Assembly: GCA_947564425.1 (NCBI GenBank)
Contig: CANOBU010000015.1
Span: forward strand, 1-32,831
Reading direction: 5' to 3'
DNA from: an uncultured Eggerthellaceae bacterium
Lineage (GTDB): Bacteria > Actinomycetota > Coriobacteriia > Coriobacteriales > Eggerthellaceae
Length of the DNA stretch: 32,831 nt
Shown here: positions 13,189 through 24,982 of the stretch, one piece after another
Layout of the letters: every line of letters begins with the position of its first letter
Position numbering within the stretch: the stretch's first letter is position 1
Notes under the pieces: generated by a model
Told to the model about the DNA's origin: nothing
The model's input: the letters and a program-made list of their open reading frames with translations, nothing else
The model's database searches: none
Position numbers and translations under genes: made by a program

Positions 13189-13229
13189 AGCGCGCTCTAG
13201 GGAGCACTGGGGCGCTCGCATGTTGTGCG

Positions 13230-13345
13230 CTCGCATGCTGCGCATGCATTGCGGACGGCTCGCATGCTGCGCATGCATTGCGGACGGCTCGCATGCTGCG
13301 CATGCATTGCGGATGGCTCGCATGCTGCGCATGCATCGCTGATGG
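13230..13345. repeat. Four tandem 29-bp repeats with internal dyads
   Basis: Units start at 13230, 13259, 13288 and 13317, each opening CTCGCATGCTGCGCATGC. The first two are identical, the third differs by one base, and the fourth diverges in its last third; a partial copy (GCTCGCATGTTGTG) sits just upstream from 13215. Each unit holds the dyad GCATGC-TGC-GCATGC, so every copy can form a hairpin or bind a dimer. The array occupies most of the gap between the SDR stop and the metal-ATPase promoter. There are no spacers between units. Confidence 0.9.
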
Positions 13346-18227: not shown

Positions 18228-18323
18228 CGTTGCCCCTCTCTGCGATATTGCTTTCGGAATCCTGTGTTCGCCTGGTTGAATTTCCCAAGGTTGCACGGTT
18301 CGGGAGACGCGACCGGCAGGGGG

Positions 18324-18354
18324 AGTATATCAGGGTTCCAAAGGCACCTGTCAT
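18324..18354 (-). promoter_or_regulatory. Probable promoter of the 17613-18227 gene
   Basis: On the minus strand ATGACA (18354-18349) precedes TATACT (18329-18324) with a 19-base spacer. The -35 box overlaps that of the divergent symporter promoter, so the two may interfere or share a regulator. Confidence 0.4.
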
Positions 18355-18376
18355 TTTGGCGCCGATTTGTAATAAT
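18348..18376 (+). promoter_or_regulatory. Probable symporter promoter
   Basis: CTGTCA (18348-18353), then 17 bases, then AATAAT (18371-18376), giving a start near 18383 and a leader of about 60 bases. No operator is recognisable in it. Confidence 0.45.
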
Positions 18377-18443
18377 CCGACCGCGGGGAGCGCTGTCTTG
18401 TGCGATTGGGCAGAGGGGATATCGGCTATCATGGAGGATGGCA

Positions 18444-19919
18444 ATGGATGGGGAGGGGATGCAAACCATGGAAGATGGAAGAGCGGCAAAGGCGGGTATC
18501 GGTCCGAGGTGGAGGCGCAAGCCATCCCTCACCGCCTGGATACTCATCTCGCTTGCTGCAGGTATGGTCATCGGAATCGCATGTTCCATCGCCGTTCCCG
18601 CGGATTCGGCCTTCGATGCCTATGTCATAGAGGGTGTGCTCTATGTGCTGGGCCAGTGGTTCATCCGCCTGATGCAGATGCTCGTGGTGCCGTTGGTGTT
18701 CTGCTCCATCGTGTGCGGCGCCGCCTCGATGAGCGATCCGAAGATGCTCGGAAAGGTGGGTGCGGGCACTATCCTGCTGTACTTGTGCACCACGGCCCTG
18801 GCGGTCATCATAGCCATCTTGCTGGCCCAGGCCGTCTCGCCCGGCATCGGCCTTGACATGAATGCCATCGTGAAGGTCGACCCCGCAGCCACTGCCACCG
18901 ATCAGACCATGGCCGACATGCTTATCAACATCATCCCCACCAATATCGTCTCGGCTATGGGTAACGGTACGATGCTGCAGATCATCTTCTTCGCCCTGGT
19001 GCTGGGATTCATCTTAGGGCGCCTGGGTACGAAGGTCGCCACGGTGAACCGCTTCTTCACCCAGTTCAACGCCATCATGATGTATATGATCGGCCTGGTG
19101 CTGAAGGTGGCGCCGCTGGGTATCTTCTGCCTCATCACGCGCACGTTCGCCAATCTGGGCCTCGAGGGCATCCTGCCCATGGTGAAGTTCATCGGTACCG
19201 TGTATCTGGGCCTCCTTACCCAGCTGCTGGTGGTGTATATGCTCATCCTGTTCCTGTTCACGCGTTTGAATCCCTTCCATTTCCTGCGCAAGATGCTGCC
19301 GGTCATGCTGTTCGCGTTCTCCACGAGCTCATCCAATGCGACCATCCCCCTGAATATGGAGACGCTGGAGGCCAAATGCGGCGTCGATCCGAAGGTCGTC
19401 TCGTTCACCATTCCCTTGGGTGCCACCATCAACATGGACGGCACCGCCATCATGCAGGGCGTGGCGGTGATATTCGTGGCCCAAGCCTTCGGCATCGACC
19501 TTTCCCTCGCAGCCCTTGCCACGGTGGTGGTCACAGCGGTAACGGCCTCCATCGGCACGGCCGGCGTACCCGGGGTGGGCACCATCATGCTGGCCATGGT
19601 GTTCGCCTCGGTGGGGCTTCCGGCCGAGGGGGTGGCCATGATCATGGGCATCGACCGTCTGCTGGATATGGGCCGTACTGCGATAAACATCACCGGCGAT
19701 GCCGTGGTTACCATGGTCATGGCGAAGCTGACGGGGCTGCTGGATACGGCGGTGTTCAGGAACCGTGATTACGCGGCTGTGAGCACGGCGGACCTCGGCG
19801 AGAGCGCCGAGCCCGTCACCGTGGGCGATTTCACATCCCACGGCGAGCCCACCGAGATAGGCGAGGAGGGCGCCCCGGACAAGTTCGCCGCCATCGAGGA
19901 ACCAAGACCCCAACGGTAG
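18444..19919 (+). CDS. Dicarboxylate/amino acid:cation symporter (DAACS family)
   Basis: Na+- or H+-coupled uptake of glutamate, aspartate or C4-dicarboxylates. The 491-residue product has the family fold of eight helices and two re-entrant loops: FSTSSSNATIPLNME (first loop), IPLGATINMDGTAIM (NMDGT motif in TM7), GTAGVPGVGTIM (second loop) and GIDRLLDMGRTAINITGD (TM8). A roughly 40-residue acidic hydrophilic tail follows. Starts at 18444 (GGAGG 6 bases upstream) and 18468 (GGGGAGGGG 9 upstream) are both plausible and differ by eight residues; I chose the better-spaced one. Uptake of a dicarboxylate would suit the oxaloacetate decarboxylase pump encoded further along, but the genes are not adjacent. 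Confidence 0.92.
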   Translation: MDGEGMQTMEDGRAAKAGIGPRWRRKPSLTAWILISLAAGMVIGIACSIAVPADSAFDAYVIEGVLYVLGQWFIRLMQMLVVPLVFCSIVCGAASMSDPKMLGKVGAGTILLYLCTTALAVIIAILLAQAVSPGIGLDMNAIVKVDPAATATDQTMADMLINIIPTNIVSAMGNGTMLQIIFFALVLGFILGRLGTKVATVNRFFTQFNAIMMYMIGLVLKVAPLGIFCLITRTFANLGLEGILPMVKFIGTVYLGLLTQLLVVYMLILFLFTRLNPFHFLRKMLPVMLFAFSTSSSNATIPLNMETLEAKCGVDPKVVSFTIPLGATINMDGTAIMQGVAVIFVAQAFGIDLSLAALATVVVTAVTASIGTAGVPGVGTIMLAMVFASVGLPAEGVAMIMGIDRLLDMGRTAINITGDAVVTMVMAKLTGLLDTAVFRNRDYAAVSTADLGESAEPVTVGDFTSHGEPTEIGEEGAPDKFAAIEEPRPQR

Positions 19920-19921
19920 CA

Positions 19922-19990
19922 GGGTGACAGGGGGACGCTCACTTTTGACACATCTCGGATGTGTCAAAAGTGAGCGTCCCCCTGTCACCC
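19922..19990. repeat. 69-base perfect palindrome (33-bp arms, 3-base loop)
   Basis: Arms 19922-19954 and 19958-19990 are exact reverse complements across all 33 bases, separated by TCG. The left arm begins GGGTGACAGGGGGACGCTC and ends TTTTGACACATC. It starts two bases after the symporter stop. As RNA it would be an extremely stable hairpin and probably ends the transcript, though only weak pyrimidine follows. The GGTGACAGGGGGACG start is, from memory, a wording of REP-like palindromes mobilised by IS200-like (RAYT) transposases in diverse bacteria; none is encoded here. Confidence 0.92.
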
Positions 19991-20087: not shown

Positions 20088-20192
20088 GTGCCTCGAAAGG
20101 ACTGGGACGGCGCCACGTTCCGAACCTGGTCAGGTCCGGGAGGAAGCAGCCATAAGGGACCGCTGACGAGCGTCCCGGTCTTTTCGGGGCAC
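20088..20192 (+). ncRNA. ffs: Small (4.5S-type) signal recognition particle RNA
   Basis: Scaffold that binds Ffh and FtsY for co-translational membrane targeting. The diagnostic apical region is present at 20128-20158: GGTCAGGTCC, a GGGA tetraloop of the GNRA class, then GGAAGCAGCC ATAAGGG. The closing helix pairs 20088-20109 (GTGCCTCGAAAGG onward) with 20171-20192 (to CGGGGCAC) with a few G-U wobbles. A T-run (TTTTTCTTT) follows at 20193-20201 and would end transcription. It lacks the Alu domain, as expected for a small bacterial SRP RNA. Being just upstream of dnaX-ybaB-recR is a common bacterial placement. Exact ends are estimated from pairing. Confidence 0.95.
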
Positions 20193-20224: not shown

Positions 20225-20914
20225 ATGGGATTCATCGAATTCATCATCGGGTTCCTGAAGGACCCGCGCACCTATATCGCCGGTTGGATCTTGGCCTTGG
20301 GGCCGGTCTTCGTGTATGCGCCGCTGTTCCTGGTGGTGTTCATCGAGACCGGGGTGGTGTTCTTCCCCTTCCTGCCGGGCGACTCGTTGCTGTTCGCCTG
20401 CGGCGTCTTCTCGGCCGATGGCTGGGGGCTCAACCTCTTCGTCACTCTTGCCGTCTTCTATGCGGCGGCCATCCTGGGCAATACCTCCAACTATTGGATC
20501 GCCCGCTTCTTCGGCAGCCGCATCATCGATTCGGGCAAGGTGAAGGCGCTCACGGCTGAGCGCATGGCCAAGCTCGACCATTTCTTCGCCAAATACGGCG
20601 GCCTCACCATCGTGATAACGCGCTTCATGCCGTTCTTCCGCACGTTTGCGCCGTTCATCGCCGGAACAGGCCATATGAATTTCGGCAAATTCACTTTCTA
20701 TAACTGCATCGGGGGTATAAGCTGGGTGACCGTCTTCGTGCTGGCCGGTTACTTCTTCGGCGGCGTTCCCTTCGTGCAAGAGCATTTCAGCACCATCGTC
20801 ATGGGCATCATCCTCATATCGGTGCTGCCCGCCATCATCGGCGCTGTGAAAGGCGCCCTGGCATCGCGCCGGCGCCCCGTCCCCGACGAAGGGGAAGGCA
20901 GCCCGCGTTCGTAA
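20225..20914 (+). CDS. DedA family membrane protein (VTT domain)
   Basis: Polytopic membrane protein of the DedA/SNARE-associated family, whose members act in lipid (undecaprenyl or phospholipid) movement across the membrane and in proton-dependent envelope homeostasis. The 229-residue product has the conserved acidic pair Glu41 and Asp53 in FIETGVVFFPFLPGDSLLF, the GNTSNYWIARFFG segment, and the arginine-bearing RFMPFFRTFAPFIAGTGHM loop, followed by GISWV and C-terminal helices. The tail is charged and cytosolic. Only a modest GGGAAG site precedes the ATG. It lies between the SRP RNA and dnaX, 18 bases before the latter. Confidence 0.92.
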   Translation: MGFIEFIIGFLKDPRTYIAGWILALGPVFVYAPLFLVVFIETGVVFFPFLPGDSLLFACGVFSADGWGLNLFVTLAVFYAAAILGNTSNYWIARFFGSRIIDSGKVKALTAERMAKLDHFFAKYGGLTIVITRFMPFFRTFAPFIAGTGHMNFGKFTFYNCIGGISWVTVFVLAGYFFGGVPFVQEHFSTIVMGIILISVLPAIIGAVKGALASRRRPVPDEGEGSPRS

Positions 20915-24802: not shown

Positions 24803-24832
24803 GCATTGCCTCATGAGCGAACAGGCCGCAAC

Positions 24833-24952
24833 GCCGGAAGATCGGAAGGGGGCATGCACAAAGCGAGTTCCGCACGACGCGAAAAGCCCAGTGGGCTTTT
24901 CGCCAAAGCAGGACTGTCCGAGCGACTGCATGTCCCCTTCCGATCTTCCGGC
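24833..24952. repeat. 120-base nested inverted-repeat element
   Basis: The terminal arms 24833-24858 and 24927-24952 match at 25 of 26 positions, beginning GCCGGAAGATCGGAAGGGG. Between them, 24879-24889 and 24893-24903 form a perfect 11-bp hairpin (GCGAAAAGCCC, loop AGT). This long-arm, central-hairpin plan resembles a MITE or a folded non-coding RNA. It lies after the last Oad gene, and the central hairpin with its GGGCTTTTCGC side could terminate that operon. No target-site duplication is apparent at its edges and no open frame lies within. Confidence 0.8.
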
Positions 24953-24982
24953 CTAGCAACTTGCATTCGCTATATTCCGAAG

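Follow-up and report, generated by a model that had tools for sequence, protein, structure and literature searches.

The window analysed here is a 32,831-nt contig (C15) from the draft genome of an uncultured Eggerthellaceae bacterium (GCA_947564425.1), and it carries a perfect palindrome directly behind a transporter gene. The question is whether this palindrome is a local signal of that gene, such as a terminator, or one copy of a mobile repeat. An earlier account based on the letters of the window (the sequence-only reading) saw a likeness to REP-like palindromes linked to IS200-like RAYT transposases and proposed that, if dispersed, the palindrome would be a recently active mobile or regulatory element.

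A perfect palindrome behind the transporter gene

The palindrome consists of two 33-nt arms, 100% complementary, around the loop TCG (19922-19990). The left arm (19922-19954) reads GGGTGACAGGGGGACGCTCACTTTTGACACATC, the right arm is its exact reverse complement, and the element starts 2 nt 3' of the stop codon TAG (19917-19919) of the SDF transporter gene. The sequence-only reading had described this 69-base structure, and its sequence and coordinates are exact. The single-stranded DNA folds at -43.5 kcal/mol, compared with -9.1 (sd 2.1) for dinucleotide shuffles (z = -16.7), and as RNA the palindrome forms a 33-bp hairpin. The view that such arms are not maintained by chance holds as well: a scan of 1.57 Mb for perfect hairpins with loops no longer than 12 nt and arms no shorter than 18 nt gave only 17 that do not overlap. 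Both strands carry the reading MSKVSVPLSP (GTG TCA AAA GTG AGC GTC CCC CTG TCA CCC, with a GTG start); the arithmetic is correct, and nothing suggests that this reading is translated.

Each arm contains a 28-nt REP unit, GTGACAGGGGGACGCTCACTTTTGACAC. A single unit from the window forms a 6-bp stem with a mismatch and hardly folds by itself. Several other short-loop palindromes likewise have a mismatch in the single-unit stem, and only the whole doublet folds well. The features of the window and the family members are listed in Table 1.

Table 1. Features around the window palindrome and members of its family in the draft genome
Feature	Location	Strand	Description
Left arm, 33 nt	window 19922..19954	+	REP unit at 19924-19951, with GG outside and ATC inside
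Loop TCG, 3 nt	window 19955..19957	none	
Right arm	window 19958..19990	-	inverted copy of the REP unit, at 19961-19988 on the - strand
Sodium:dicarboxylate symporter gene (PF00375)	window 18264..19919	+	context; ends in the stop codon before the palindrome
Bacterial small SRP RNA gene (RF00169)	window 20094..20189	+	context; ~100 nt downstream, outside the element
VTT-domain (DedA-like) membrane protein gene (PF09335)	window 20225..20914	+	context
Inverted pair	C2:48724-48790		
Inverted pair	C2:52747-52813		
Inverted pair	C12:12492-12545		
Inverted pair	C12:21467-21550		
Inverted pair	C14:4032-4111		
Inverted pair	C15:19922-19990		window copy
Inverted pair	C16:23317-23386		
Inverted pair	C26:8113-8181		one arm decayed
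Inverted pair	C55:1-62		at contig end
Inverted pair	C80		63-nt spacer
Inverted pair	C24		inside assembly artefact
Single or tandem-single units	C3, C8, C9, C28 (two), C35, C68		

A dispersed family in the draft genome

The draft genome comprises 1.67 Mb in 116 contigs and is 85.9% complete; 90 contigs including the window (1.572 Mb, 94% of the draft) were analysed directly. The exact 33-nt arm occurs as a single copy in the draft at up to 3 mismatches, and none of the genome contig records searched contains the 26-nt core of this copy in exact form. Taken alone, the arm search would wrongly suggest a single-copy feature. With up to 3 mismatches allowed, the core GGGGACGYTCRCTTTYGNCAC matched at 30 places, 14 of them forward and 16 reverse, and its reversed-pattern control gave 0; among the 30, the match at C2:50318 (3 mismatches) looks coding and may be due to chance. 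The family is laid out as about 11 inverted pairs plus single units, and it accounts for 10 of the 17 perfect hairpins in the scanned 1.57 Mb. A sister core, GGGACGGGTACTTTGACACATT, is found in three more of these hairpins (C49, C26 and C4) and has 8 units in the draft.

Members of the family are thus scattered over the genome. Most are inverted pairs with precise ends and unrelated flanks, and most lie shortly after a stop codon. This supports the sequence-only reading in that the palindrome is REP-like and belongs to a dispersed family. A single copy conserved in place across relatives, in a genome with no RAYT gene, had been named as the sign of a local terminator; this is not what the genome holds, even though the exact 33-mer is single-copy.

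Some contigs end in or at palindromes of the window or sister families (C4:57405-57452, C18:1-40 and C55:1), so the draft undercounts these families; C4 and C18 probably adjoin. Short palindromes of this kind can also flip a draft assembly, as seen in contig C24 (C24:1-21042; loci L223, L224 and L110): all of its 21,042 bp are identical to their own reverse complement, with a family palindrome at the centre. The assembly almost certainly switched strands at this hairpin. That contig lends some substance to the suspicion that the window palindrome itself arose from a strand switch in the draft, but the two flanks of the window copy are unrelated to each other and the assembly of the Parvibacter caecicola type strain has the same type of palindrome, which makes this explanation highly improbable.

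Position relative to genes

Ten of 17 elements start close to the end of an ORF of 150 codons or more, at -6 to +12 nt relative to its stop codon, with about 5% expected for each; the binomial probability was computed on 10/16 (8e-10) and would be similar for 17. In the C16 element, the outer GGTGA provides the TGA stop codon of a uracil-DNA-glycosylase-superfamily gene.

These positions, together with the 2-nt distance from the transporter stop codon and the 33-bp RNA hairpin in the window, could be read as a local signal of the transporter gene, either a transcription terminator or a hairpin stabilizing the mRNA 3' end. Selection would have acted on it in place, and it would insulate the SRP RNA gene as well. 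However, no T-tract follows the window palindrome, the terminator scan made no call there, and the palindrome is absent from the other same-genus genomes searched. Related copies exist elsewhere, and one of them (C12:21467-21550), with divergent ORFs on either side, precedes the start of a ThiF-family gene by 19 nt. Perfect arms of 33-42 bp are also longer than termination needs, as the sequence-only reading had pointed out. The window element therefore resembles intrinsic terminators in being a stem-loop right behind a stop codon, but differs from them in the missing U-tract, the far longer arms, the dispersed related copies and the one copy upstream of a gene. An intrinsic terminator was rejected on the missing U-tract and the copy before a start codon, a terminator-only role does not fit, and selection of the hairpin in place as a local signal is quite unlikely. 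The element may affect mRNA ends in a secondary way.

The two arms of each copy change together

The REP unit follows roughly the pattern GTGWCR-G3to5-ACG-TTCRCTTTY-GNCAC. In its basic form, represented by the single units and those of P. caecicola, a 6-bp stem encloses a G-rich loop, and the stem is kept by paired changes (GTGACA/TGTCAC, GTGTCA/TGACAC, GTGTCG/CGACAC and GTGACG/CGTCAC). Between copies, several positions, the length of the G-run and the centre vary; the centres include ATC-TCG, GTT-GTTA, ATTCGGGCAGGC, ACCGCAGGGA-ACCC, ATTTA and ATCGCT-G. Within copies the units are far more alike: the mean edit distance between 28-nt units was 1.1 within pairs and 4.2 between pairs, and only 2 of 200,000 random re-pairings in a permutation did as well as the real pairs. 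The inner arm sequences and the G-run length are also mirrored within copies, while the inner arms are unrelated between copies.

On C2, one 67-bp element occurs twice (48724-48790 and 52747-52813) between flanks that are unrelated, a sign of copying. When these two copies are oriented alike, their sole difference is one transition, and it is present on both arms. The CTCAC variant is common to the C15 and C55 copies, which lie at different loci and have nearly identical centres; C55 has GACGGGGG where C15 has GACAGGGGG, and its two arms agree in this. A comparison of seven loci revealed no similarity between their flanks, and no target-site duplication was seen.

The unit has thus been copied with precise GTG...CAC ends, and the arms of each copy co-evolve. 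The co-evolution would be caused by template switching between the arms, which is documented as a route to homogenized inverted repeats (PMC8794818, PMC8604942), or alternatively by selection on the hairpin during transposition. The family is a small, clean set of copies whose arms changed together, and it offers a way to find out if REP doublets replicate as a single hairpin or if template switching repairs them.

Y1 transposase genes and their repeats

The search for a Y1/IS200-like transposase that the sequence-only reading had called for found one Y1_Tnp (IS200-like) gene in the draft, at C41:2883-3776 (L004). Its product (277-aa frame; PF01797, E 1.1e-12) contains the motifs ENHAHLLV (HAH) and VRYIHMNP (YIHMNP), and the Y1_Tnp domain, the HUH motif and a downstream tyrosine place it among RAYT/TIRYT proteins. 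The gene is bracketed by inverted 27-nt copies of another repeat, REP2 (GCAGGACGGGGATAATGTCATCA, core GGACGGGGATAATGTCATCA), which has two more copies in the draft; the upstream copy overlaps the start of the Y1 open frame. No window-family unit was seen bracketing a Y1 gene in the draft (86% complete). The earlier proposal of a RAYT link thus stands for the REP-like dispersed palindrome and for the presence of a Y1/IS200-like gene of RAYT type, but not for the pairing of the two, as that gene is bracketed by REP2 and not by the window family.

Several Y1 genes in genomes of the same genus have near-perfect palindromes with other sequences beside them, in some cases on both sides (L073, L075, L076, L078, L079, L081, L082 and L086); the hairpin background for this comparison, 0.054 per kb, was measured in the window's genome only. 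At L086 (1133-1167 and 2256-2290) and L078 (1078-1112 and 1980-2016), near-perfect palindromes with a 1-nt loop enclose Y1 genes of sister species, and each genome has its own palindrome sequence. One Y1 gene of Desulfosporosinus is bracketed by GGGGACGGTTCT repeats that resemble the doublets of that genome, and this bracketing repeat (GGGGACGGTTC) is related to the window family. A second repeat of P. caecicola, CCTGACAGGGGACGGGGTTAATGTCAGG, is similar to REP2 and by eye shares TGACA..GGACG..TGTCA with it; the P. caecicola record gave no Y1_Tnp match. By analogy with these arrangements, the window family may be tied to a Y1 enzyme.

Comparison with known repeat systems

REPINs are replicative doublets in which compensatory changes are common (PMC3116915). 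The window family resembles RAYT-linked REPINs/BIMEs (PMC3116915) in its short palindromic unit arranged in inverted doublets that form one hairpin, in its dispersal (30 units against 0 in the control, 10 of 17 elements by stop codons), in the compensatory arm changes and in the RAYT-type gene of the genome. It differs from them in carrying no GTAG tag at either element edge, which also separates it from the GTAG-tagged REP superfamily, and in having mostly 0-4 nt loops instead of long spacers, whole arms that are perfect up to 42 nt, only about 30 units, and no gene found bracketed by its unit.

In genomes without GTAG REPs, G-rich inverted repeats (TIRYT repeats, TIRtrons) bracket Y1 genes, and the repeats associated with TIRYTs are moderately abundant, often dimers and in some cases self-complementary (PMC3733652). 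The C41 Y1 gene with its REP2 bracket corresponds to this arrangement. The window family differs in not being seen to bracket a Y1 gene in the draft and in matching the motif GGGGWSAS (PMC3733652) at 7 of 8 positions (GGGGACGC), one base off. Like the CGTC-tagged REPs (PMC3733652), it contains CGTC, apparently without a dedicated transposase; in the window doublet, however, GACG/CGTC is internal and paired and is not an unpaired end tag, which sets it apart from that superfamily. The assignment as a REPIN/BIME-like REP doublet of a RAYT/TIRYT-type family is strong. The literature searched held no description of REP families in Coriobacteriia.

Distribution in other genomes

Among 396 genomes of the class, two carry multiple copies of the core when up to 1 mismatch is allowed, this one (22) and G095 (44), and three others have a lone one-mismatch match each. 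Two contig positions of G095 match P. caecicola DSM 22242 loci (L038/L041) in sequence and spacing, from which we infer that G095 is P. caecicola, a species of the class Coriobacteriia; G095 is placed in the same family as the genome of the window. The 28-nt pattern is absent from all 14 other genomes of the same genus, three of which have lone, unpaired matches to a looser pattern. Related units were also found in one Desulfosporosinus draft and one Propionibacteriaceae draft, and there was no match in plasmids or, for a search with the core, in viral contigs. The distribution of the family is patchy. For the empty-site comparison, relatives have the SRP RNA/VTT side without the adjoining transporter gene; at the C16 locus only the glycosylase side aligns with relatives, and synteny beside the elements is broken.

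Origin and spread of the palindrome

We consider it probable, at roughly 75%, that the palindrome, with its two inverted 28-nt REP units, belongs to a non-autonomous mobile family of the REPIN/BIME type in this species that a Y1 enzyme would mobilize. When single-stranded, the doublet would fold into a single long hairpin. The folded repeat would be recognized by a Y1 HUH transposase of RAYT/TIRYT type, and copies would spread via a single-stranded DNA intermediate. Fold-back template switching, or conversion between the arms, would keep the two arms identical. Sites just 3' of genes would be tolerated, and an effect on mRNA ends there would be secondary and not the reason the element exists. 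Several observations speak against this reading: the sole Y1 gene found in the genome is bracketed by a different repeat, the window unit with its mismatched stem barely folds alone, neither a GTAG foot nor a target-site duplication was seen, and the broken synteny in relatives kept any clean empty site from being shown. In addition, G095, taken as P. caecicola, has 44 units, yet the P. caecicola record has no Y1_Tnp match.

The same record also fits another explanation, in which no dedicated transposase takes part: template switching during replication, together with recombination between copies, would turn single REPs into perfect palindromes and also spread them. Inner arms that are unrelated between copies and mirrored within them agree with it, and template switching is reported to create and maintain hairpins (PMC8794818). 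Nevertheless, these processes alone do not explain the precise-ended dispersal to unrelated flanks seen in the C2 pair, and we regard this explanation as unlikely. It would mean, with the same low probability, that REP doublets without a cognate Y1 transposase keep making and maintaining perfect palindromes by fold-back copying and need nothing but host replication and recombination to persist and spread.

Other repeats

The window holds two further inverted repeats, one of 41 nt soon after its first gene (903-990; 85% complementary, 6-nt loop) and one of 31 nt with 68 nt between the arms (24828-24957; 90% complementary), as well as a 29-bp unit, GCTCGCATGCTGCGCATGCATTGCGGACG, in about 4 head-to-tail copies (13200-13344). 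Elsewhere in the draft, a third repeat, ATGACAAATGAAACGACCCCTGTCAT, occurs as an inverted pair and in more copies, with 4 units on C2 (C2:7481-7680 and C2:15362), and contig C19 starts with a 13-bp tandem repeat, CCCCCCTGGCACG (C19:1-65).
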